DNA from: an uncultured Nitrospira sp. | GTDB lineage: Bacteria; Nitrospirota; Nitrospiria; Nitrospirales; Nitrospiraceae | Direction of reading: 5' to 3' | DNA length: 64,000 nt | Assembly: GCA_902500825.1 (NCBI GenBank) | Contig: CABVRX010000003.1 | Span: 62,001-126,000 of the forward strand | Shown: one piece after another, positions 3,179-60,848 of the stretch | Layout: every line of letters starts with the position of its first letter | How positions within the stretch are numbered: position 1 is the first letter of the stretch | Notes under the pieces: model-generated | What the model saw: the letters and a program-made list of their open reading frames with translations, nothing else | The model's database searches: none | What the model was told of the DNA's origin: nothing | Position numbers and translations under genes: made by a program

Positions 3179-5236
3179 GTGAGTGACTCAGCGATTGTAA
3201 CGTTTGCCCTCATAGCGGCCGTAGCTGGTATTGCCTATGGGCTGTACCTCGCGATGTGGGTGTTCAGGCTCGACGCCGGCAATGCCAAGATGCAGGAAAT
3301 TGCGAAGGCCATTCAAGAAGGCGCCGGCGCCTACATGAATCGACAGTACAGGACCGTCGGTTATGTGGCGGCAGGCCTGTTCGTCATTCTGGCAGCTGCC
3401 GGAGCCGTGTCGGATAAATTTGGTCTGCTTACGGCGGTCGGTTTCTTGGTCGGAGCGGGAGCCTCGGCCATCGCCGGCTACGTGGGCATGATCATCGCGG
3501 TTCGCGCCAATGTGCGGACGGCCCAAGCGGCACATAACGGTATGAATGCCGCATTGATCGTTGCGTTCCGTGGCGGCGCGGTGACCGGTCTGCTGCTGAT
3601 CGGGCTCGGACTGTTGGCTATTACCGGTTTTTACACTATTGCCGTATCAATGGCCGGACAGGAAAAAGCCGTTCACGCATTGCTCAGTCTTGGATTCGGT
3701 GGCAGTCTGATTTCCGTCTTCGCACGCGTCGGTGGCGGTATCTACACGAAGGCAGCCGACGTCGGCGCCGATTTGGTGGGTAAAGTCGAAGCGGGGATTC
3801 CGGAAGATGACCCGCGCAACCCAGCGGTTATCGCAGATAACGTTGGTGACAATGTGGGAGATTGCGCCGGCATGGCGGCAGACCTCTTTGAAACCTATGC
3901 CGTGACGACGGTGGCGGCGATGGTGTTGGCCTTTACGATGTTCAAGGGGGCGACTGCCCCGATTCTGTATCCATTGGCCTTGGGCGGTATCACGATCTTT
4001 GCCACGATCATTGGGATTCTCTTTGTGAAGGTCACTCCGGGCGGCGAAATTATGCCGGCACTGTATAAGGGGTTATTTGTAGCCGGTGGGATTGCCGCCG
4101 TGGCATTTTTACCGATCACCTTCATGATTATGGGCGGAGTCGGAGGTGTCAGCGGGTTCAGTTACTACCTTGCGGCGCTAATTGGCTTAGCGGTCACTTT
4201 GGCGCTTGTGTTCATCACCGACTACTACACATCGAAGAACTATGAACCGGTGCAGTACATTTCTAAAGCAAGCGAAACCGGGCATGCGACGAACATCATC
4301 GCCGGTCTGGCGGTGGGTATGCAGTCGACGGCGGCTCCCGTGGTGGTGATTGCAGCGGCGATTCTCGGAAGCTATTGGGTGTGCGGCGGAGCGGAGTCTG
4401 GCGGATTATACGGTGTGGCGGTGGCGGCAGTGGCCATGCTCTCGATGGCAGGGATTGTCGTGGCGATCGATGCCTTCGGTCCTATTACGGACAATGCCGG
4501 CGGCATCGCCGAAATGTCGCATTTGGGCAAGGAAGTCCGTGACATCACGGATCCATTGGATGCGGTCGGCAATACGACGAAGGCGGTCACGAAGGGCTAT
4601 GCGATCGGGTCCGCTGGTTTGGCTGCAGTGGTACTCTTTGCCGAATACTCGCGTGAAGTTGCCGCGCATAATCCGGCGCTGGCTGCGTTCGATCTCTCGA
4701 ACCCAAAAGTCTTGGTTGGTCTCTTTCTCGGGGGGATGCTCCCGTTCATCTTCGGCTCAATGTGTATGAGAGCTGTTGGTGAAGCAGGAGGGTTGATCGT
4801 GGAAGAAGTGCGTCGGCAATTCAGAACGATCAAGGGTATCATGGAAGGGACAGGCAAGCCGGAGTACGGCACCTGTGTGGATATCGTGACCCAGGCGGCA
4901 ATTCAAAAGATGATGATTCCTGGTTTGATTCCAGTTGTCTCGCCGGTGATCATCGGTGTGGTGCTTGGACCGCAGGCGCTCGGTGGTGTGTTGGTGGGTA
5001 GCATCGTGACTGGTTTATTCGTCGCGATTTCCATGACAAGCGGGGGTGGTGCGTGGGACAACGCCAAAAAGTTTATCGAAGAGCAGGGTTTGAAGGGGAG
5101 TGAGACACATAAGGCGGCGGTCACCGGCGATACGGTCGGTGATCCTTATAAGGACACGGCAGGACCGGCCGTGAACCCGATGATCAAGGTCATCAATATC
5201 GTTGCATTGCTCATTGTGTCCTTGATCGCGGGCTAG
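3179..5236 (+). CDS. hppA: Membrane-bound proton-pumping pyrophosphatase
   Basis: A 685-residue polytopic inner-membrane protein that couples pyrophosphate hydrolysis to ion translocation. The substrate-binding block [19 protein letters not shown] and the [19 protein letters not shown] block are intact, as is the C-terminal [15 protein letters not shown] motif. Position 468 is Lys in [10 protein letters not shown]. In this family a Lys here (instead of Ala) marks the potassium-independent, proton-pumping class. The GTG start is set by the GCAGGAGG ribosome site. The gene is closed by a hairpin terminator, so it is a single-gene unit; it recovers energy from PPi released by biosynthesis. Confidence 0.97.
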
Positions 5237-5267: not shown

Positions 5268-5305
5268 AAGCGCCGTGTCCCAACCGGGGCACGGCGCTTG
5301 TCGTT
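5268..5305 (+). terminator. Rho-independent-like terminator after hppA
   Basis: 14-bp stem 5268-5281 / 5286-5299 with loop AACC and one G-U pair, followed by a weak T-containing tail (GTCGTTTC). It separates hppA from pup. Confidence 0.75.
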
Positions 5306-5317
5306 TCTCCCCTTGCC

Positions 5318-5347
5318 TTGACGGGTTTTGGTACCCTGGAGTATGGT
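5318..5347 (+). promoter_or_regulatory. Predicted sigma-70 promoter of pup
   Basis: -35 TTGACG at 5318-5323, 18-bp spacer, -10 TATGGT at 5342-5347. It lies downstream of the hppA terminator and about 65 bp before the pup start, which supports independent transcription of pup. Confidence 0.55.
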
Positions 5348-5412
5348 GGGTTTATCACCGGCAGTAGCCGGTTGATCGCGAGGGTTTCCCCTGGTCCACG
5401 GGAGGTGCTCGA

Positions 5413-5610
5413 ATGGAAAAACAGGAACGGAAACAAGAGCCGCGACGAGAACCGCAGGGTAAGGAAGAGGTCAAGGCCAATCCAAAAGTTGTCGAAGCCG
5501 GTAAAAAGATCAAGGAAGATATCGATAAGCTGGTCGATGAAATCGATGACGTTCTTGAAAAGAACGCGGAAGAGTTTGTGAAGAACTACGTGCAGAAAGG
5601 GGGAGAATAA
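5413..5610 (+). CDS. pup: Prokaryotic ubiquitin-like protein Pup (C-terminal GGE)
   Basis: A 65-residue, highly charged, disordered-type protein that PafA attaches to lysines of target proteins to send them to the proteasome. The C-terminal half matches Pup closely: DEIDDVLEKNAEEFVKNYVQKGGE, with the helix that binds the ARC/Mpa coiled coil and the terminal Gly-Gly-Glu. Because the last residue is already Glu, no deamidation by Dop is needed before ligation; Actinobacteria that encode Gln do need it. ATG at 5413 has GGAGGT just upstream. The gene is not next to the proteasome operon (54.5-60.8 kb) but stands alone between the hppA terminator and the recJ promoter. Confidence 0.95.
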   Translation: MEKQERKQEPRREPQGKEEVKANPKVVEAGKKIKEDIDKLVDEIDDVLEKNAEEFVKNYVQKGGE

Positions 5611-5671: not shown

Positions 5672-5700
5672 TTGACAAAAAAGAAGCGACTTATTACAGT
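5672..5700 (+). promoter_or_regulatory. Predicted sigma-70 promoter of recJ-rel
   Basis: -35 TTGACA at 5672-5677, 17-bp spacer, -10 TACAGT at 5695-5700: a near-consensus promoter about 65 bp ahead of the recJ ATG at 5767. It also argues that the in-frame ATG at 5719 is too close to the expected transcript start to be the real one. Confidence 0.7.
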
Positions 5701-5766
5701 CTGCGTCGTTCCTCTGATATGCATGGTTTGAGTTATGGCACGGCCCAGGCCCTCAAGGAGGCAGGG

Positions 5767-7476
5767 ATGAAGTCTAAGCTCTGGGTCATTCGCCAGGTCG
5801 ATCCAGTCCAACGAGGCCTCTTGTCACAGGCCTTATCCATTTCCTCGGTAACCGCCGCACTGTTGCTCAATCGAGGGGTGACGAGCGTGAACCAGGCGAC
5901 CGCCTGGATGTCTCCACTCCGAACCCACGATCCCTTCTTGATTCCCGATATGGAATCGGCGATTGACCGTCTGTATCGAGCGATGCAACGACGCGAGGTC
6001 GTATGTTTCTATGGTGATTACGATGTGGACGGCATGTCGGCCACGAGTATTTATCTTTCGTTTTTCCGTGGACTCGGTGCCGAAGTCCGAGCCTATGTCC
6101 CGCATCGTCTGCGTGAAGGGTATGGACTCAATGAGAGAGCTGTTCGGACTTTGGCGAAGGAAGGGGTCTCTTTATTGGTGACTTCCGATTGCGGGACCAC
6201 GTCGCATCGTGAGATTAGCCTGGCCAATCAATTGGGGATCGATGTCATAGTAACCGACCACCATCAAAGCGACGGGGAAATGCCGCCGGCTTTGGCGGTA
6301 ATGAATCCGCATCGGCCGGAAGCTCGGTATCCCTTTCACGGGCTTTGTTCCGGTGGTCTGGCGTACAAGGTTGCTCAGGCTTATGACAGGAAGTATGGTG
6401 CCGGTTCGGTGCCACTGGAGTCGCTATTGGATTTGGTCGCGCTTGCCACAATTGCTGATGTGGTTCCCTTACAAGACGAAAATCGACTATTTGTTCGAGA
6501 GGGGCTTGCTCATATTTCACGAGGGACGCGCTGCGGCATACGAGCCTTGAAACATGTCGCCGGTATCACCGGTATCAGTTGTGAGTGCACGGCGGAAACC
6601 ATTGCGTTTAAACTTGGACCTCGACTCAATGCCGCAGGCCGATTAGATGAGGCCATCAAAGGTGTGAGACTTCTGACGACGGAGTCTGAACGGGAAGCCA
6701 AAGAGTTGGCTGAAGATCTGGAGCAGTTGAATCGAGCCCGCCGTGAACTCGAGGCTGAGATCTTACAGGAAGCATTGGCTCAGGTGGAATCACGAGCATT
6801 ACCGGGCGGCATCGTCCTGTATGCACGAGGGTGGCATCTCGGGGTCGTCGGTATCGTGGCCGCCCGTATCATGGAACGGTTCCATCGTCCGACGGTCGTC
6901 ATCGCGGTGAATGAACAGGGTATCGGAAAGGGGTCGGCACGGACTGTGCCCGGATTCGATTTGTATCAGACTTTGGCGGCCTGTCGAGACCTGCTCATGG
7001 CATTCGGCGGCCATCCTAGTGCTGCAGGGGTCACGATACAGGAAGCGAGGTTGCCGGAATTTGTGGAGCGATTTTCCGCGATCGCTGAGACATGGATCCG
7101 AGAGACTCAAAGTGTTCCCATGCTGCATGTAGATTCGGAAGTTCGGTTGAACGAGGTCACGTTGCGGCTGATTCGAGAGATCGGGACGCTGCATCCATTC
7201 GGGGCTGGAAACCCAGAGCCGACGTTCGTCGTCAAAGGTCTGGACATTCTCAACGCTCGAATGGTCGGAGAAAAGCATTTGAAGATGACAGTCCGCCAGG
7301 GAGGGTCGGTCCCGTTTGATGGTATTGGATTCGGGATGAAATCGTTGGAGGACCGCGGGTTGTCTCTCAAAACCCCCATCGATGTCGCATGTACGCCGGA
7401 ACTGAATCACTGGAATGGTTACGATCGGATTCAACTGCGCATCCGAGATATACGGGCCGCCGGTCGTGAGTCATAG
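5767..7476 (+). CDS. recJ: Single-stranded-DNA-specific exonuclease RecJ
   Basis: A 569-residue 5'-3' ssDNA exonuclease used in recombination and mismatch repair. DHH-family motifs are present: YGDYDVDGMSA (motif I), TSDCGTT, VTDHHQ (the DHH motif), and the DHHA1 block GIGKGSARTVPG with the GGHPSAAG signature. A C-terminal OB-like region follows. ATG 5767 is preceded by AAGGAGG, which fixes the start against the upstream ATG at 5719. The stop codon abuts the rel start directly, so the two genes form an operon. Confidence 0.96.
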   Translation: MKSKLWVIRQVDPVQRGLLSQALSISSVTAALLLNRGVTSVNQATAWMSPLRTHDPFLIPDMESAIDRLYRAMQRREVVCFYGDYDVDGMSATSIYLSFFRGLGAEVRAYVPHRLREGYGLNERAVRTLAKEGVSLLVTSDCGTTSHREISLANQLGIDVIVTDHHQSDGEMPPALAVMNPHRPEARYPFHGLCSGGLAYKVAQAYDRKYGAGSVPLESLLDLVALATIADVVPLQDENRLFVREGLAHISRGTRCGIRALKHVAGITGISCECTAETIAFKLGPRLNAAGRLDEAIKGVRLLTTESEREAKELAEDLEQLNRARRELEAEILQEALAQVESRALPGGIVLYARGWHLGVVGIVAARIMERFHRPTVVIAVNEQGIGKGSARTVPGFDLYQTLAACRDLLMAFGGHPSAAGVTIQEARLPEFVERFSAIAETWIRETQSVPMLHVDSEVRLNEVTLRLIREIGTLHPFGAGNPEPTFVVKGLDILNARMVGEKHLKMTVRQGGSVPFDGIGFGMKSLEDRGLSLKTPIDVACTPELNHWNGYDRIQLRIRDIRAAGRES

Positions 7477-9657
7477 ATGATGTACGAAACCGTGACGAAC
7501 ATCGACCAATTGTTAGATCGTCTGCAAAGCTATCAGCCTGATGCCGATCTCGGCATGGTACGGAAGGCCTATGAGTTTTCCGCGAAGGCGCATGAAGGAC
7601 AAGTCCGTCAATCCGGAGAACCCTATGTGAAGCATCCTGTAGCGGTGGCCGGAGTATTGACATCTTTGAAAACCGACGTCACCGCGGTTGTGGCCGGGTT
7701 GTTACACGATACGCTGGAAGATACGGTCGCGACGACCGATGAGCTTCAGCGGGAATTCGGGAAGGAGGTCGTTCATCTCGTCGACGGCGTGACAAAGATC
7801 GGGAAGATCACCTTTAAGAGTTCGGAGGAAAAGCAGGCTGAAAATTTCAGGAAAATGGTGCTCTCGATGGCGGACGATATTCGCGTCGTGATCATCAAAC
7901 TGGCCGATCGGCTTCATAATATGCGAACTCTTGAACATCTCCGTGAGAAAAAACGGCAAGAAATCGCACAGGAGACGTTGGAAATCTATGCCCCTTTGGC
8001 CAATCGCATCGGAATCGGCTGGGTGAAGAATGAGCTGGAGGATTTGTGCCTGAAACATCTCAAGCCGGATGTCTATGAAACCTTGCGGGTGTGCGTGGCG
8101 AAGCGCGATGAAGATCGCCAGCAGTATATCCAGGAGGTGCAAGCGTTCGTCGAAAGGGCTCTGAATGAGAATGGGCTTGCGGGAGCAGTATACGGGAGGC
8201 CAAAACATCTCTACGGGATCTATCAAAAAATGAAGAAGCAGTCGATCTCGTTCGAAGAGGTGTACGATCTGACCGCCTTGCGGATCATTACCGACACGAA
8301 GATGAACTGTTACGCGCTGCTGGGCATCATCCATTCGTTGTGGCGACCGCTGCCGGGCCGCTTCAAGGATTACATCGCGATTCCCAAATCGAACCTCTAT
8401 CAATCCCTCCATACAACCGTGGTCGGGCCGAAGGGCGAGCATGTCGAGTTTCAGATCCGCACGGAAGAAATGCATCGCGTCGCCGAGTACGGGATTGCGG
8501 CGCATTGGAAGTATAAAGAACAGGGGCGGGTGCAGGATAAGGACAGCAAGGCCTTCGGATGGCTGAGGCAGTTCATCGAATGGCAACAAGATCTGCCGGA
8601 CAATCGTCAATTCATGGATTCCGTGAAACTTGAGTTGTTCCACGATGTGGTCTATGTCTTTACGCCCAAGGGAACCGTCAAAGAACTACCGAAAGGGGCC
8701 ACGCCGGTAGACTTTGCCTATGCGATTCACACAGAAGTCGGCGATCACTGTGTCGGGGCAAAGGCCAACGGAAAGATCGTTCCGCTTAAGCATGAACTGA
8801 CGAACGGCGACACGATCGAAATTTTGACATCTCCGAACCAGACGCCGCACAAAGATTGGCTCAAGTTTGTCCGCACGTCACGGGCGAAGACGAAGATTAA
8901 ACATTGGGTCAAGGCAGAAGAACAGAAACGAAGCTTGGAAATCGGTTGGCGGTTGCTCGAATCAGAGATTCGGCGCCATGGCATGGCACCGTCGCAGATC
9001 CTCAAGTCTGATGCCTTGCTCGAAATGGCCAAACAAGAAGGCTACGCAACGATTGACGAGCTTGCGGCGGCCGTGGGATTTGGTCACCTCGCCACGGCTC
9101 AACTCATTGGACGGTTGGTGGCTCCGATCTCAGCCGACGCTCCACCGCTGCCTCAACCGGCGAGTGTCTCCAAAACCGCCAGCACGAGAGGAGACGTGCC
9201 TGGCGTCCAGGTGAAGGGGGGACGCGATCTGTTGATGCAACTGTCGCGATGCTGTAACCCTGTTCCCGGGGACAAGATCTTGGGATATATCACGCGTGGA
9301 AGGGGCCTCACGATTCATTCGGTCGATTGTCCCAACCTGGAAGCATTGGATTATGATCGAGAACGTTTGGTGGAAGTGGAGTGGGATACGGCTACGCCGA
9401 GTCAGCATGCGGTTAAAATAGCCGTCGTCGCGGAAGATAAGACAGGAGTGTTGGCAAACGTTTCCTCAGCGATCGCCGAGTGCAAAGCGAATATCAGCCG
9501 CGCCGAAATCATCACTCGGGAAGATCGCAAGGCGGAGCTGGATTTTGTCGTCGAAATCGCCGACACGGCTCACCTGAATCGCGTGCTGAAAACCATTGAA
9601 CGGATAGGCGGTGTCATTACGGCGCGACGCGTTCGGTCCTGGCAGGAACGCTCATAA
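7477..9657 (+). CDS. rel: Bifunctional (p)ppGpp synthetase/hydrolase (RelA/SpoT family)
   Basis: A 726-residue stringent-response enzyme that makes and degrades (p)ppGpp. The N-terminal HD hydrolase domain has its metal residues (H53, HD at 77-78, ED at 81-82). The synthetase domain follows (GRFKDYIAIPKSNLYQSLHTT), then TGS (VYVFTPKGTVKELPKGATP), a zinc-finger/helical region with CC and C residues, and a C-terminal ACT domain (DKTGVLANVSSAIAE). Both active sites appear intact, as expected for a single long Rel protein. It abuts recJ with no gap. Confidence 0.96.
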   Translation: MMYETVTNIDQLLDRLQSYQPDADLGMVRKAYEFSAKAHEGQVRQSGEPYVKHPVAVAGVLTSLKTDVTAVVAGLLHDTLEDTVATTDELQREFGKEVVHLVDGVTKIGKITFKSSEEKQAENFRKMVLSMADDIRVVIIKLADRLHNMRTLEHLREKKRQEIAQETLEIYAPLANRIGIGWVKNELEDLCLKHLKPDVYETLRVCVAKRDEDRQQYIQEVQAFVERALNENGLAGAVYGRPKHLYGIYQKMKKQSISFEEVYDLTALRIITDTKMNCYALLGIIHSLWRPLPGRFKDYIAIPKSNLYQSLHTTVVGPKGEHVEFQIRTEEMHRVAEYGIAAHWKYKEQGRVQDKDSKAFGWLRQFIEWQQDLPDNRQFMDSVKLELFHDVVYVFTPKGTVKELPKGATPVDFAYAIHTEVGDHCVGAKANGKIVPLKHELTNGDTIEILTSPNQTPHKDWLKFVRTSRAKTKIKHWVKAEEQKRSLEIGWRLLESEIRRHGMAPSQILKSDALLEMAKQEGYATIDELAAAVGFGHLATAQLIGRLVAPISADAPPLPQPASVSKTASTRGDVPGVQVKGGRDLLMQLSRCCNPVPGDKILGYITRGRGLTIHSVDCPNLEALDYDRERLVEVEWDTATPSQHAVKIAVVAEDKTGVLANVSSAIAECKANISRAEIITREDRKAELDFVVEIADTAHLNRVLKTIERIGGVITARRVRSWQERS

Positions 9658-54577: not shown

Positions 54578-56347
54578 ATGGCGGAAAGCAAGGGCCAGCC
54601 AAATCGACTCCGGTCCCTCCGAGATTCTGTCAAGAAGATCACGAAGCGGCTGTCCGAGGGGAATGGAGAGATGATTCACAAGAACGACGAACACGCGCGC
54701 GAGATGGAAAAGCTTCGCGTTCAGATTCAGTCGATGGAGGAAGAAATCCGTCGGCTCTACCAATCACGCCACCAACTCGATCAAGCCAATACACAGAACG
54801 AAAAACTCGTGGCCACGCTGCAGGAAGCGAAGGCGCAGATCGAGGCGCTCCGTACCGAGGTGGAAAAACTGACGGCGCCGCCGTCGGCGTATGCCATTTT
54901 CTCAAGTATGAATGAGGACGGTACGGGAAACGTGTATGTGTCGGGACGAAAAATGAAGGTCAGTCTTCATCCTTCGATCAAGCGGACTGAATTGCGGAAG
55001 GGACGAGAGGTCGTTCTCAACGAGGCGCTCAACGTAATCGAGGTTAAAGGTTTCGACAGCCAGGGAGAGGTCGTTCGACTCAAAGATGTGTTGGAAGGGG
55101 GACGGGCATTGGTCACCCTCCATTTCGATGAAGAGAAGGTGGCCGAGCTCGGCGACCCACTGCTCGTGGAACGGCTGAGTGTGGGGGACCATCTATTGTA
55201 CGATCCCCGTTCCGGGTATGTCATCGAGAAGCTGCCGAAGTCCGAAGCGGAAGAGCTCGTGTTAGAAGAGGTTCCGGATGTCGACTATGAACACATAGGA
55301 GGCCTCCAGAAAGAATTGGAGCAGGTGCGCGATGCTGTCGAACTTCCGTTCCTGCATCCGCACGTGTTTTCCGAGTATAAGCTCAGCGCACCGAAAGGGG
55401 TTCTGCTCTATGGCCCACCCGGTTGTGGGAAGACACTGATCGCCAAGGCCGTCGCCAATTCGATCGCCAAGAAATTAGGCCATCGGGCAGGCAAAGAAAT
55501 TCGGAGCTACTTTCTTCATGTGAAGGGCCCCGAATTGCTCAATAAGTATGTCGGGGAGTCGGAGCGTCAGGTACGCGAGGTATTTAAGAAGGCGAAGGAA
55601 CGGGCGGAGGACGGTCATCCGGTGATCGTGTTTTTCGATGAGATGGATGCGCTCTTCAGAACCCGTGGAACAGGGATATCCTCGGATATCGAGTCGACGA
55701 TCGTTCCCCAGTTTCTCTCTGAGATCGATGGGGTCGAACGATTACGCAATGTCATCGTTATTGGGGCCAGCAACCGTCAAGATTTGATTGATCCGGCGGT
55801 GCTTCGCGCCGGTCGGTTGGACGTCAAGGTCAAAGTAGGGCGACCGGATGCCACGGCTGCACGTGACATTTTCTCGAAGTACATCTCGACGGATCTCCCT
55901 TTTGCCGCCGAGGATTTGGAACGGCATGGAGGCGATCGACAGGCTCTGGTCGATCGGTTGACGGCTCTGACGGTCGAAACCATGTATGCAGCCAGTGAAG
56001 AGAATAAATTCATCGAAGTAACCTACGCCAACGGCGAGAAGGAAGTCTTGTACTTCCGGGACTTCGCCAGCGGAGCCTTGATCGAAGGAATCGTTTCGCG
56101 CGCGAAAAAATTTGCCGTGAAGCGCGTGATCGCGTCAGAGGGAGCTGGCTTGCGCTCAGACGACTTGATCCGCGCCATCCGTGAGGAGTTCAAGGAACAC
56201 GAGGATCTTCCCAATACGACCAATCCCGACGATTGGGCGAAAGTCGCCGGGAAAAAAGGCGAGAAAATCATTCATATCAGGACTATCAGTGGTGGACCCG
56301 CCGAACATCGGCAGATTGAAACCATCAGTACCGGCCACTATCTCTAA
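54578..56347 (+). CDS. arc: Proteasome-associated AAA ATPase ARC (Mpa-like)
   Basis: A 589-residue unfoldase that captures pupylated proteins and feeds them into the 20S core. An N-terminal coiled coil (about residues 30-100) that binds Pup, OB domains (about 105-230), and an AAA module with Walker A GPPGCGKT (279-286), Walker B IVFFDEMDALF and IGASNRQDLIDPAVLRAGR are visible. It ends in GHYL, close to the C-terminal GQYL of Mpa, which docks on and opens the proteasome gate. First gene of arc-dop-prcB-prcA-pafA. Confidence 0.95.
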   Translation: MAESKGQPNRLRSLRDSVKKITKRLSEGNGEMIHKNDEHAREMEKLRVQIQSMEEEIRRLYQSRHQLDQANTQNEKLVATLQEAKAQIEALRTEVEKLTAPPSAYAIFSSMNEDGTGNVYVSGRKMKVSLHPSIKRTELRKGREVVLNEALNVIEVKGFDSQGEVVRLKDVLEGGRALVTLHFDEEKVAELGDPLLVERLSVGDHLLYDPRSGYVIEKLPKSEAEELVLEEVPDVDYEHIGGLQKELEQVRDAVELPFLHPHVFSEYKLSAPKGVLLYGPPGCGKTLIAKAVANSIAKKLGHRAGKEIRSYFLHVKGPELLNKYVGESERQVREVFKKAKERAEDGHPVIVFFDEMDALFRTRGTGISSDIESTIVPQFLSEIDGVERLRNVIVIGASNRQDLIDPAVLRAGRLDVKVKVGRPDATAARDIFSKYISTDLPFAAEDLERHGGDRQALVDRLTALTVETMYAASEENKFIEVTYANGEKEVLYFRDFASGALIEGIVSRAKKFAVKRVIASEGAGLRSDDLIRAIREEFKEHEDLPNTTNPDDWAKVAGKKGEKIIHIRTISGGPAEHRQIETISTGHYL

Positions 56348-56354
56348 CTATTCT

Positions 56355-57854
56355 ATGCCAGATCACACATCCACGAATCGCATGCGCGTGCTCGGCACTG
56401 AAACCGAGTTCGGCATCGCGGCAAAAGATCCATCTGCGATAGACCCTGTGTCTGGTTCATTCGCCGTGATCGGACAGTACCCGAGACTCCCGGCCCCTGG
56501 GGCTCTGTGGGATTACGAAAACGAAAATCCACTTTTAGATGCCCGGGGGTTTGAAGTCGACGGCGAGCGCGAACGTCCCAATCCAGACTATAACCGGCAG
56601 CTGAATAAGGTGCTGGCGAACGGCGGACGCTTATATGTCGATGGAGCTCATCCGGAGTACTCGACACCGGAATGTTCGAATGCCAGAGAGATCGTGGCGT
56701 TCGAACGAGTCGGGGAGCGCATTCTCGCTGCCTGCCTTCAGGCAATGGTTCGGGTGAGGGGGAGCGAACAGTATGTTCTGTACAAGAACAATTCCGACGG
56801 CAAGGGTAACAGCTATGGATATCACGAAAACTATTTAGTCTCGAGGTCCGTACCGTTCGACAAGATCGCTCGGGTGTTGATGCCGTTCATGGTCACACGA
56901 CCGATTTTCACCGGGGCAGGAAAAGTCGGGGCTGAAAATCAGACCAGCCCGACGGAATATCAAATCTCGCAGCGCGCCGACTTTTTCGAATGTCTCATGG
57001 ATCTCAACACGATGGTCAAACGGCCGATCATCAATACACGCGACGAACCGCATGCCGATGCCGCCAGGTTTCGAAGACTCCATGTCATCACGGGGGACGC
57101 CAACATGGCGGAACTCTCCACCTATCTCAAGGTGGGAACATTGGATATCGTCTTGGATTTGCTTGAGTCTGGAGCCGATCTGCCTCAGTTCGACCTGGAC
57201 GAGCCGGTTCGTGCGTTCAAGCAAGTGTCGCGCGACCTGGATGTGAAGGAAACGGTGAAACTGGCCGGTGGAAGACCCACCACGGCTCTTGCCGTCCAGC
57301 GGGCGTACCTCAGCGCAGCCAAGACGTTTTATGCCTCGCAGGAGCACAGTCCCACGACTCACGACATGTTGCTTCGTTGGGAAGATGTGTTGAACCAGCT
57401 CGATCGCGATCCGCGGTTGCTGGTGAACGCGTTGGATTGGGTCGCCAAGCGACATATGATCGAGTCCTACATGGAGCGTAAAGGTTGCGGATGGGATGAT
57501 CCTCGAATGAAGCTGATGGATCTCCAATATCATGATGTCCGTCCGGACAAGGGATTGTTCTATACGCTGGAGCGCAGTCGCCTCGTCGAGCGGATCGTCG
57601 AAGAAGACGATATTCAACGAGCTGAGCTTAATCCGCCGACAGGAACCAGGGCCTATTTTCGAGGGCGCTGTGCCAGTAAGTTTGCGAAGGCGTTGTACGG
57701 GGCCAGTTGGACGTCGGTGTTGTTCGACGTCGGCAATACGACGATCAAGAAAGTGCCGCTAATGGATCCCCATCGAGGGACGCAGGCATTGACACAAGAG
57801 CTGCTCGATACAACCGACTCGATCGATGCCCTGATCGAAAAACTTAAGGTTTGA
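56355..57854 (+). CDS. dop: Dop, deamidase/depupylase of Pup
   Basis: A 499-residue glutamine-synthetase-fold enzyme of the Dop/PafA family. It opens with VLGTETEFGI; WDYENENPLLDARGFE (Dop-specific segment) and LYVDGAHPEYSTPECSNA with the catalytic-type Asp96 follow. The remaining family blocks (KNNSDGKGNSYGYHENYLV; INTRDEPHADAARFRRLHVITGDANM) are intact. As the local Pup already ends in Glu, its likely main role is removing Pup from substrates. ATG 56355 lies 7 bp after arc. Confidence 0.94.
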   Translation: MPDHTSTNRMRVLGTETEFGIAAKDPSAIDPVSGSFAVIGQYPRLPAPGALWDYENENPLLDARGFEVDGERERPNPDYNRQLNKVLANGGRLYVDGAHPEYSTPECSNAREIVAFERVGERILAACLQAMVRVRGSEQYVLYKNNSDGKGNSYGYHENYLVSRSVPFDKIARVLMPFMVTRPIFTGAGKVGAENQTSPTEYQISQRADFFECLMDLNTMVKRPIINTRDEPHADAARFRRLHVITGDANMAELSTYLKVGTLDIVLDLLESGADLPQFDLDEPVRAFKQVSRDLDVKETVKLAGGRPTTALAVQRAYLSAAKTFYASQEHSPTTHDMLLRWEDVLNQLDRDPRLLVNALDWVAKRHMIESYMERKGCGWDDPRMKLMDLQYHDVRPDKGLFYTLERSRLVERIVEEDDIQRAELNPPTGTRAYFRGRCASKFAKALYGASWTSVLFDVGNTTIKKVPLMDPHRGTQALTQELLDTTDSIDALIEKLKV

Positions 57855-57877
57855 CGAACGGTGGTTCAAAGACCACG

Positions 57878-58693
57878 ATGAAGCTTCCTTATCTACCCGA
57901 CCACGACGGATCCAGTTTTTTTGACTTCGTCTCAACCCATCATCCTGAGTTGGCATTACGTAGCCATGGAATGCCATCGGGTCCCGACCAGATGCGCGCC
58001 GTAGGGCCGGTCGCTGTGCCATCCGCTACGACCGTGCTGGCGGTCAAGTATCAACAGGGTGTCGTGATTGCCGGAGACCGCCGAGCGACGGAAGGGTTTC
58101 AGATCGCGGATCGCCGGATCGAGAAAGTTTTCAAGATCGACGACTGGTCGGCCATGGCGATAGCCGGGGCGGCCGGTCCCTGCATCGAGATGGCCAAGTT
58201 ATTTCAAACCGAGTTGGAGCATTACGAAAAGCTGGAAGGCATGCCGCTCTCCTGTGAAGGGAAGGCCAATAAGCTGGGCCAGATGGTCAAGGCCAATCTG
58301 CCGATGGTGTTTCAGGGATTGGTCGTCATGCCGTTGTACGTCGGGTATGACTTGAAACGAGGCGAAGGCCGCATTTTCAAGTACGACATCACCGGTGGGA
58401 GGTACGAAGAGTCCGACTACCATGCGATCGGTTCCGGAGGGAAAGATGCCCGCAACACGATGCGCGAGCATTTTCAACGGCATCTCTCCGAGGGAGACGC
58501 GATAAAATTGGCCTTGTTGGCGCTCTACAATGCCGCGGACGACGACGTTGGGACCGGCGGACCGGATCTCGTGCGGGGCATTTACCCCACCGCGAAAGTC
58601 GTGACCGCTCAAGGCATCGCCGACGTATCCGACGACACGCTGCGTGCCGTGTGCAACGATGTGATGGCGGCACGCCGTTCAAGGGAGACGTAA
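57878..58693 (+). CDS. prcB: 20S proteasome subunit beta
   Basis: A 271-residue N-terminal-nucleophile hydrolase. A propeptide of about 50 residues is followed by the catalytic Thr (residue 51) in SA-TTVLAVKYQQGVVIAGDRRAT; Asp and Lys of the catalytic set lie in GDRRAT and KVFKIDD. ELEHYEKLEGMPL matches the actinobacterial family. The residue before Thr1 is Ala rather than the usual Gly. ATG 57878 is chosen, although a TTG at 57851 overlaps the dop stop. Confidence 0.93.
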   Translation: MKLPYLPDHDGSSFFDFVSTHHPELALRSHGMPSGPDQMRAVGPVAVPSATTVLAVKYQQGVVIAGDRRATEGFQIADRRIEKVFKIDDWSAMAIAGAAGPCIEMAKLFQTELEHYEKLEGMPLSCEGKANKLGQMVKANLPMVFQGLVVMPLYVGYDLKRGEGRIFKYDITGGRYEESDYHAIGSGGKDARNTMREHFQRHLSEGDAIKLALLALYNAADDDVGTGGPDLVRGIYPTAKVVTAQGIADVSDDTLRAVCNDVMAARRSRET

Positions 58694-58695
58694 CC

Positions 58696-59382
58696 ATGCC
58701 GATGCCTTATTACGTGTCCCCTGAACAGATGATGCAGGATAAGGCTGAGTATGCCAAGAAGGGGATTGCCAAAGGCCGCTCGATCATCGCGATGGAGTAT
58801 ATCGACGGCATTCTGTTGACGGCGGATAATCCCAGCGCCTCGCTGCACAAAGTGTCGGAAATCTACGACAACATCGCGTTTGCGGGCGCGGGCAAGTACA
58901 GCGAATTCGAGAACCTTCGCAAGGCGGGCATCCGCCATGCCGATCTCAGAGGATTCATGTATAGCCGGGAAGATGTGACCGGCCGCTCGCTCGCAAACGG
59001 ATATTCGCAAAGCCTGGGGACCGTGTTCAGCCAGGAAATGAAGCCGCTTGAAGTTGAAATCCTTGTGGTGCAAGCCGGTGCGGATCATCATCCGAACGAA
59101 ATCTATCGTATTTCGTTCGACGGCAGCATCGTCGACGAGAAGAACTTTGCGGTGATCGGCGGACGGTCTGAGGCGGTGCACACCGTGTTGAAGGAAAAAA
59201 GTCCCGGCGAGGTTCCGCCCTTGGACGCTGCGTTGAAGCTGTGTGTCGCGGCGCTGGAGCAAACGGCCAATCAAAAGCTGCAGCCGGAAGGGTTGGAAGT
59301 CGCGGTCTTGGACCGAACTCGTACCGGCCGAAAGTTTCGGCGGTTATCGATCACCGACGTTCGATACATCCTCTCTCCCTGA
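58696..59382 (+). CDS. prcA: 20S proteasome subunit alpha
   Basis: A 228-residue subunit forming the outer rings (MPMPYYVSPEQMMQDKAEYAKKGIAKGRSIIAMEYIDGILL; GYSQSLGTVFSQEMKPLEVEILV). It has no catalytic Thr and carries the N-terminal gate. ATG 58696 is 2 bp after the prcB stop (CGTAACC between). Confidence 0.94.
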   Translation: MPMPYYVSPEQMMQDKAEYAKKGIAKGRSIIAMEYIDGILLTADNPSASLHKVSEIYDNIAFAGAGKYSEFENLRKAGIRHADLRGFMYSREDVTGRSLANGYSQSLGTVFSQEMKPLEVEILVVQAGADHHPNEIYRISFDGSIVDEKNFAVIGGRSEAVHTVLKEKSPGEVPPLDAALKLCVAALEQTANQKLQPEGLEVAVLDRTRTGRKFRRLSITDVRYILSP

Positions 59383-59409
59383 CCCTCCCCTCCATAGGGA
59401 CTTGCTTTG

Positions 59410-59436
59410 TTGAAAGTCCGAAAAGCGGCGTATAAT
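59410..59436 (+). promoter_or_regulatory. Possible internal promoter ahead of pafA
   Basis: A perfect TATAAT at 59431-59436 with TTGAAA at 59410-59415 (15-bp spacer, slightly short). It could give pafA independent expression within the proteasome cluster, starting about 12-18 bp before its ATG. Confidence 0.5.
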
Positions 59437-59453
59437 CTGTCTGAAGGCTTTTC

Positions 59454-60848
59454 ATGATGTCTTCGGGTCCCATGAAACAACGGATATTCGGCCTCGAGAA
59501 CGAATACGGCCTCATTTTTTCTCCCAACGGCCGAATCTACCTCCCCATGGAAAAAGTCCTGGGGTACATCTTTGAAGGACTGATTCCGAATAGCTGGCCG
59601 TCGAACGCATTTTTGGTCAACGGGGCGCGGTTCTATCAAGACACCGGCTGTCATCCTGAATACTCGACTCCGGAGTGCGATAACATCCTTGACCTCGTGA
59701 TCCACGACAAAGCGGGCGAGCGCTTGCTGGAAGCCTGTTTGCCTGCAGCGGAGGAGCGGCTTCGAGAGGAAGGATTGTCCGGGGAAATCTATATTTTCAA
59801 GAACAACACGGATTCCCTGGGGAATACCTACGGATGCCATGAAAACTTCCTCATGCGGCGCGACGTCGATTTCTGGAAAGTCACTGAGCAATTGATCCCG
59901 TTTTTCGTGACCAGGCAGGTCTTCAGCGGGGCCGGAAAAATATTAAAAGTATCCGGCAAGCCGCAATATTTCATCTCTCAGCGCGCGCAACATATTCATG
60001 AGAAGACATCATCGTCGACGACGTCTTCACGAAGCATCATCAATACCCGCGACGAGCCCCATTCGGACGCCGAACGATATCGACGCCTCCATATCATCGT
60101 CGGGGATTCCAACATGTCGGAGTATGCCACCTATCTCAAAGTCGGGACGGCGGCGCTCGTCTTGTCGATGATCGAAGAGGGGTACACGGTTCATGGGTTG
60201 GAGCTGGAGGACCCGGTCAAGGCGATTCGAGAAGTCTCTCGTGATCCGACGCTGAAGAAAAAAGTGAAACTCGATGACGGCCGGCAGATGACCGCCATTG
60301 AAATTCAGCTGGCGTACCTCAAGAGAGCCGGAGAGTATCTGAATCAACAGGCGCATGAACCCATCCTCGACGATGTGTACGACAAATGGGAACGGATGCT
60401 CCAGCAGCTGGAAGAAGATCCGATGCAACTCACCCATCAGGTCGATTGGGTCACGAAGAAACATCTGATCCAATCCTACGTGGACAAGAAGAACTGCGGG
60501 TGGGACGATCCGAGAGTGTTCCTCCTTGATTTGCAGTTCCATGACGTGAAGCGGACGAGAGGGTTGTATTACCTGATGGAGTCTCGAGGGCTCGTCGAAC
60601 GTGTCGTCGAAGAGGAGGCGGTTCAGCGGGCGATGTCCACTCCGCCTCAAACGACCAGAGCCAAGGTCCGTGGGGATTTCATTCGGTTCGCTCGAGCGAA
60701 GAATCGATCGTATACCGTGGATTGGACGTATCTGAAGCTGAACGGGTATTGGGAGGAAACCATCCTCTGCATGGACCCTTTCAGTGCGGTAAATCGGCGC
60801 GTTGAAGAACTGATTTCTCAAGTATCGGGGGGACGGTTTTATCGATGA
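59454..60848 (+). CDS. pafA: Pup ligase PafA
   Basis: A 464-residue ligase that activates the terminal Glu of Pup with ATP and joins it to lysines. Glutamine-synthetase-fold blocks are present: IFGLENEYGLIF, NGARFYQDTGCHPEYSTPECDN (catalytic Asp63), KNNTDSLGNTYGCHENFL, INTRDEPHSDAERYRRLHIIVGDSNMSEYATYLKVG. It is closer to PafA than to Dop because it lacks the Dop segment. GAAGG precedes ATG 59454. Its stop overlaps the M23 peptidase start. Confidence 0.95.
   Translation: MMSSGPMKQRIFGLENEYGLIFSPNGRIYLPMEKVLGYIFEGLIPNSWPSNAFLVNGARFYQDTGCHPEYSTPECDNILDLVIHDKAGERLLEACLPAAEERLREEGLSGEIYIFKNNTDSLGNTYGCHENFLMRRDVDFWKVTEQLIPFFVTRQVFSGAGKILKVSGKPQYFISQRAQHIHEKTSSSTTSSRSIINTRDEPHSDAERYRRLHIIVGDSNMSEYATYLKVGTAALVLSMIEEGYTVHGLELEDPVKAIREVSRDPTLKKKVKLDDGRQMTAIEIQLAYLKRAGEYLNQQAHEPILDDVYDKWERMLQQLEEDPMQLTHQVDWVTKKHLIQSYVDKKNCGWDDPRVFLLDLQFHDVKRTRGLYYLMESRGLVERVVEEEAVQRAMSTPPQTTRAKVRGDFIRFARAKNRSYTVDWTYLKLNGYWEETILCMDPFSAVNRRVEELISQVSGGRFYR

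Follow-up and report, generated by a model that had tools for sequence, protein, structure and literature searches.

A free-standing pup gene upstream of recJ-relA in Nitrospira, 49 kb from the proteasome operon

We analysed a 64-kb stretch of DNA from an uncultured Nitrospira sp., hereafter the window; all features described in it lie on the forward strand. Positions 5413-5610 (pup) encode a 65-residue ubiquitin-like tag, MEKQERKQ...DDVLEKNAEEFVKNYVQKGGE, whose last residues, YVQKGGE, contain the C-terminal GG[EQ] motif of Pup. The upstream neighbour of pup is hppA (3179-5236), the gene of a membrane H+-pyrophosphatase (PF03030, E = 1.2e-262). Downstream lies recJ (5719-7476; PF01368, PF02272 and PF17768), which codes for a single-strand DNA exonuclease and whose start codon is uncertain. 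Directly 3' of recJ follows a gene (7477-9657) that we take, from the family character of its sequence, to be a probable (p)ppGpp synthetase of the relA/spoT type; its adjacency to recJ is kept in relatives and outgroups.

Between hppA and pup, a terminator-like hairpin of 14 pairs with a weak T tail (5268-5299) precedes a promoter-like site, TTGACG-18-TATGGT (5318-5347), a leader of the form CGAGGGTTTCCC-9 nt-GGGAGGTGCTCG (5379-5411) and the Shine-Dalgarno sequence GGAGGTG (5401-5407), with a dG of -14.0 kcal/mol to the anti-SD. The pattern TTGACG/T-17/18-TANNNT stands 37-68 bp before the start codon in all 60 distinct pup upstream sequences, a sample of close relatives only (Pup identity 88% or more); 0.6% of shuffled sequences carry it. 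Elsewhere between hppA and pup much of the sequence differs among these relatives, the Shine-Dalgarno and the leader element excepted. About 60 bp after pup, recJ has a promoter-like site of its own, TTGACA-17-TACAGT (5672-5700), seen in most of the relatives shown (TTTGACAAAGAAGAAGCGACTTATTACAGTC in the nearest forms). No terminator was found between pup and recJ in the source stretch, so that read-through into recJ is possible. The first-pass annotation had credited pup with a promoter-like site and a Shine-Dalgarno of its own, both of which recur in relatives; of the two boundaries it had drawn, the recJ promoter-like site recurs as well, while a hairpin similar to the hppA terminator is clear in just part of the relatives compared.

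The Shine-Dalgarno of the displaced pup is the strongest among the groups compared and mostly near-perfect in relatives: its median dG is -13.9 kcal/mol, versus -9.5 for canonical Nitrospirota pup genes and -1.5 to -4.0 for the operon genes of Nitrospirales. Such strength would suit a cell that requires more tag than enzyme. A segment of the leader may base-pair with the Shine-Dalgarno: 35 of 47 leaders can form 10 or more of the 12 pairs (mean 9.9 versus 7.8 in shuffles). Compensatory changes are few and folding barely exceeds that of dinucleotide shuffles (z about -0.6); for these reasons we rejected the hairpin as a proven riboregulator and retain the segment as a candidate element only.

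Recognised at first by its tail, the tag is confirmed as Pup by sequence profiles and by alignment to a Pup of known structure. It matches PF05639 (E = 2e-21, 77.1 bits, cut-off 27) among Pfam profiles and TIGR03687 (E = 8.4e-17, 60.9 bits, cut-off 41.45) among NCBIfam profiles, and its last 38-39 residues (27-65) align with the M. tuberculosis Pup of 3m91 and 3m9d, solved with Mpa. Pup proteins are small and largely disordered, and their C-terminal half binds the ARC/Mpa coiled coil, as this one may do. It matches Pup models only, with no hit to the UBact models PF20513 and NF033388, and the named relatives with a matching Pup are Nitrospira species. Ending in GGE, this Pup does not need deamidation by Dop. 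A whole-genome search found a single Pup above threshold, the runner-up (E = 0.5) lying inside a 611-codon frame. Over 377 pairs the median dN/dS of pup is 0.025, indicating strong purifying selection.

The enzymes of the pathway are encoded at the other end of the window, in the operon arc-dop-prcB-prcA-pafA (54578-60848), where all five are complete and match Pfam or NCBIfam profiles above curated cut-offs. The proteasomal ATPase gene arc/mpa (54578-56347; TIGR03689, 737 bits, cut-off 505) yields a protein that ends in TGHYL and, from residue 48 on, can be aligned with Mpa structures. It is followed by the depupylase gene dop (56355-57854; TIGR03688, 543 bits, cut-off 492), whose product was aligned to Dop structures, by the 20S beta gene prcB (57878-58693; TIGR03690, E = 4e-90) and by the 20S alpha gene prcA (58651-59382; PF00227, E = 1.8e-18), with its true start probably at 58696. 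The Pup ligase gene pafA (59454-60848; TIGR03686, 563 bits, cut-off 551) closes the operon; its full-length product aligns to PafA and to the PafA-Pup fusion 4bjr, and would conjugate Pup to lysines.

From the pup stop to the arc start we count 48,967 bp, in agreement with the roughly 49 kb given in the first-pass annotation. Its observation that the operon has no space for pup holds too: the dop stop (57854) and the prcB ATG (57878) are separated by 23 bp, and the gap sequence is too tight for the gene. A Pup remnant was sought in the dop-prcB gap of five operons and none was seen; one relative (G024) has a 411 bp gap without a Pup match. Published accounts hold that pup always adjoins a gene of the PafA family (PMC2588565) and that the gene order is rigidly conserved, the whole system occurring twice in Leptospirillum (Barandun 2012, PMC3511204); reviews speak of one shared gene locus (PMC6466877, PMC8223512). 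With its tag 49 kb away and a 23-bp gap in the usual slot, this genome departs from the rule that pup adjoins a PafA/Dop-family gene in a fixed order.

The genome contains four Pup-ligase-family genes, and the extra two belong to a second, divergent operon, arc2-dop2-UBact-prcB2-prcA2-pafA2, on another contig (C2, L169:6205-12939). Its gene order is that of the first operon; unlike there, a tag is kept in the dop-prcB slot, of another family and ending in RTGE (UBact, L169:9579-9773, between dop2 and prcB2; NF033388, E = 1.3e-21; PF20513, E = 5.6e-21). The objection foreseen in the first-pass annotation, a second pup inside the operon elsewhere, holds by half: a tag indeed occupies the canonical slot of the other operon, but it is UBact and not a second Pup. 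The enzymes of this operon are 26-44% identical to those of the first, and the arc2 ATPase lacks the TGHYL-type C-terminus. The presence of the second operon invites the idea that the displaced Pup serves it, or serves both machines. We consider this very unlikely, as that operon already includes a tag, its enzymes fall short of the Pup-type cut-offs, and the closed genomes G039 and G052 have the displaced Pup with the first operon only. UBact was found in 38 of 59 relatives; the same two closed genomes, lacking UBact and yet carrying a displaced pup, led us to reject the idea that UBact caused the move.

We collected pup neighbourhoods at five ranks, from the genus through family, order and class up to the phylum, mapping the proteins of the source stretch on each. 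In every one of the 90 Nitrospirales genomes with pup found, from four families, the gene lies beside recJ/relA and none is in the operon. Conversely, pup is in the proteasome operon, by prcB or other operon genes, in 35 of 35 Nitrospirota genomes outside Nitrospirales, among them members of seven further families within the class. Nitrospirales as an order thus have the free-standing pup upstream of recJ-relA as a fixed trait. On single contigs of the genus, pup and dop are 45-59 kb apart (G005, G006, G012, G017, G019, G021, G022, G024-G026 and G030); elsewhere the distance reaches 88 kb (G039), 115 kb (G052) and 1.4 Mb (G048). The conservation of hppA-pup-recJ order, raised in the first-pass annotation, stands for one side only: pup-recJ-relA is the conserved neighbourhood, whereas hppA, just upstream of pup in most of the order, is 2.5-7 kb away or absent in several genomes of family f3. 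Because of this variability we rejected hppA-pup as the conserved unit. Three genomes in which recJ was not found (G211, L196; G055, L047; G044, L038) have pup directly before relA.

A few genomes do not display both parts of the system. In two (G009 and G041, 95% and 90% complete) the operon is present but no Pup was found, and in one (G008, 80% complete) Pup is present but no ligase was found; these gaps likely stem from incomplete assembly. Three loci scored as displaced by our script (L149, L156 and L188) proved to be artefacts of a missing or cut-off dop, as pup adjoins prcB there. A contig labelled Nitrospinota (L115, genome G247) combines the Nitrospirales pup-recJ-relA layout with a UBact operon and probably belongs to a misnamed genome.

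One genome, G043 (L057; 96% complete), represents a natural loss of the whole Pup system. Neither a Pup ligase nor a depupylase nor 20S genes were found in it; its single proteasome-family match is HslV-like, judged by resemblance to the extra match in prcBA-bearing genomes. The pup of G043 occupies the same spot before recJ-relA, with the start codon lost and QQGRG as its end. Decay of pup where the machine was lost ties the tag to the machine, and in this one case would match expectation if the displaced Pup serves the first operon. For the source genome, the notion that the pup frame is a relic or unexpressed is hardly credible given its dN/dS, its conserved promoter-like site and Shine-Dalgarno, and the visible decay of pup in G043.

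As to the origin of the layout, outgroups with a RecJ match already have recJ next to relA, and no pup with them, so pup came to lie upstream of a pair that existed beforehand. In a tree of concatenated ARC, Dop, PrcB, PrcA and PafA (104 rows), Nitrospirales operons form one clade (SH-aLRT 100) that groups with the canonical operon of one class member; since the displaced forms of the order all fall in this clade, one ancestral move is indicated. Trees of Pup alone were set aside as evidence on origin, Pup being too short to resolve it: the displaced group is whole with weak support (68/78) in a careful tree of 85 rows, and split in a quick one of 167 rows (AU p 0.002).

The order-wide neighbourhood could mean that pup is functionally tied to recJ-relA, read-through or shared control coupling tagging to starvation or DNA damage through the stringent response and DNA repair. 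The pup-recJ-relA order is kept in four families, pup remains by relA where recJ was lost, no terminator was found between pup and recJ in the source stretch, and in mycobacteria PafBC connects the Pup locus with DNA damage (PMC6466877). We nevertheless regard such a tie as improbable, because recJ possesses its own promoter-like site and the recJ-relA pair is older than the arrival of pup.

Nitrospirales are not alone in having moved the gene. Rokubacteria have the operon arc-dop-prcB-prcA-pafA with a dop-prcB gap that is too small for pup or has no Pup match, and their pup is on other contigs. They share the pup-less gap with Nitrospirales and differ in the neighbours, pup mostly following a dCTP deaminase gene, with a LysR regulator next in four loci. 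Their pup left the operon independently of Nitrospirales, and the machinery tree places them in a clade apart. Free-standing pup genes of Rokubacteria and NC10 were seen at L118-L122, L124, L126, L127, L137, L208-L214 and L222-L235, and several of these genomes have two or three copies of Pup; one pup of G239 comes after the end of an arc gene.

The relocation may also have been neutral, a single chance move after which a promoter was needed for survival, with no regulatory meaning. This account shares the anatomy of our main reading, and one event in the order's ancestor suffices for it; moreover, pup stays where recJ is lost, so the neighbourhood may not matter. Against it, the layout persists across the order, the Shine-Dalgarno is stronger than that of in-operon pup genes, and Rokubacteria lost the in-operon pup independently. 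We see neutrality as a real possibility, though with the odds leaning against it.

We favour, with a probability of about 0.85, the reading that this gene encodes the genuine and sole Pup of the Nitrospira Pup-proteasome system, relocated in the ancestor of the order and provided with its own unit. In that ancestor, pup would have left the dop-prcB slot and settled upstream of the recJ-relA pair, to be expressed from its own sigma-70-type promoter and a near-perfect Shine-Dalgarno. PafA from the distant operon would conjugate the GGE tag to lysines, ARC-PrcBA would degrade the tagged proteins and Dop would remove the tag, so that two separate transcription units would set the supply of tag and of machine. 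The actual transcription of pup, its biochemical pairing with the first operon and any regulatory benefit are inferred. Together, the conserved promoter-like site and the strong ribosome site suggest that tag and machine are probably controlled separately, as the first-pass annotation proposed, and it is plausible that this separation is adaptive.

The components themselves are known. With the actinobacterial Pup-proteasome system (mpa/arc, dop-pup-prcB-prcA, pafA), the Nitrospira one shares the protein families, a GGE-type Pup, the full enzyme set and, apart from pup, the gene order; it differs in that pup is outside the operon, 49 kb off, beside recJ-relA and behind a conserved promoter-like site of its own. 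The canonical loci of other Nitrospirota, in further orders of the class and in other classes of the phylum, hold the closest relatives of the operon proteins and a Pup 45-74% identical, and keep pup in the operon. What is new is the layout, fixed across the order, together with its conserved promoter-like site and the presence of an intact UBact operon alongside; we found no report of a displaced pup in Nitrospira in the open-access literature, the scope of our search.

The published rule of adjacency and order (PMC2588565, PMC3511204) is thus broken by an order of ecologically central nitrifiers and, separately, by Rokubacteria. For annotation this calls for caution, as Pup may escape a search confined to the operon. 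These genomes also offer natural cases of tag and machine under separate promoters, and the coexistence of Pup and UBact makes tag specificity and dosage directly testable. More speculatively, and with considerable doubt, Nitrospirales with two tag-proteasome systems may uncouple Pup from its operon, a dedicated promoter and a leader hairpin hiding the Shine-Dalgarno setting Pup abundance. If this were true, bacterial proteasomal degradation would be controlled at the supply of tag and not at that of enzyme.
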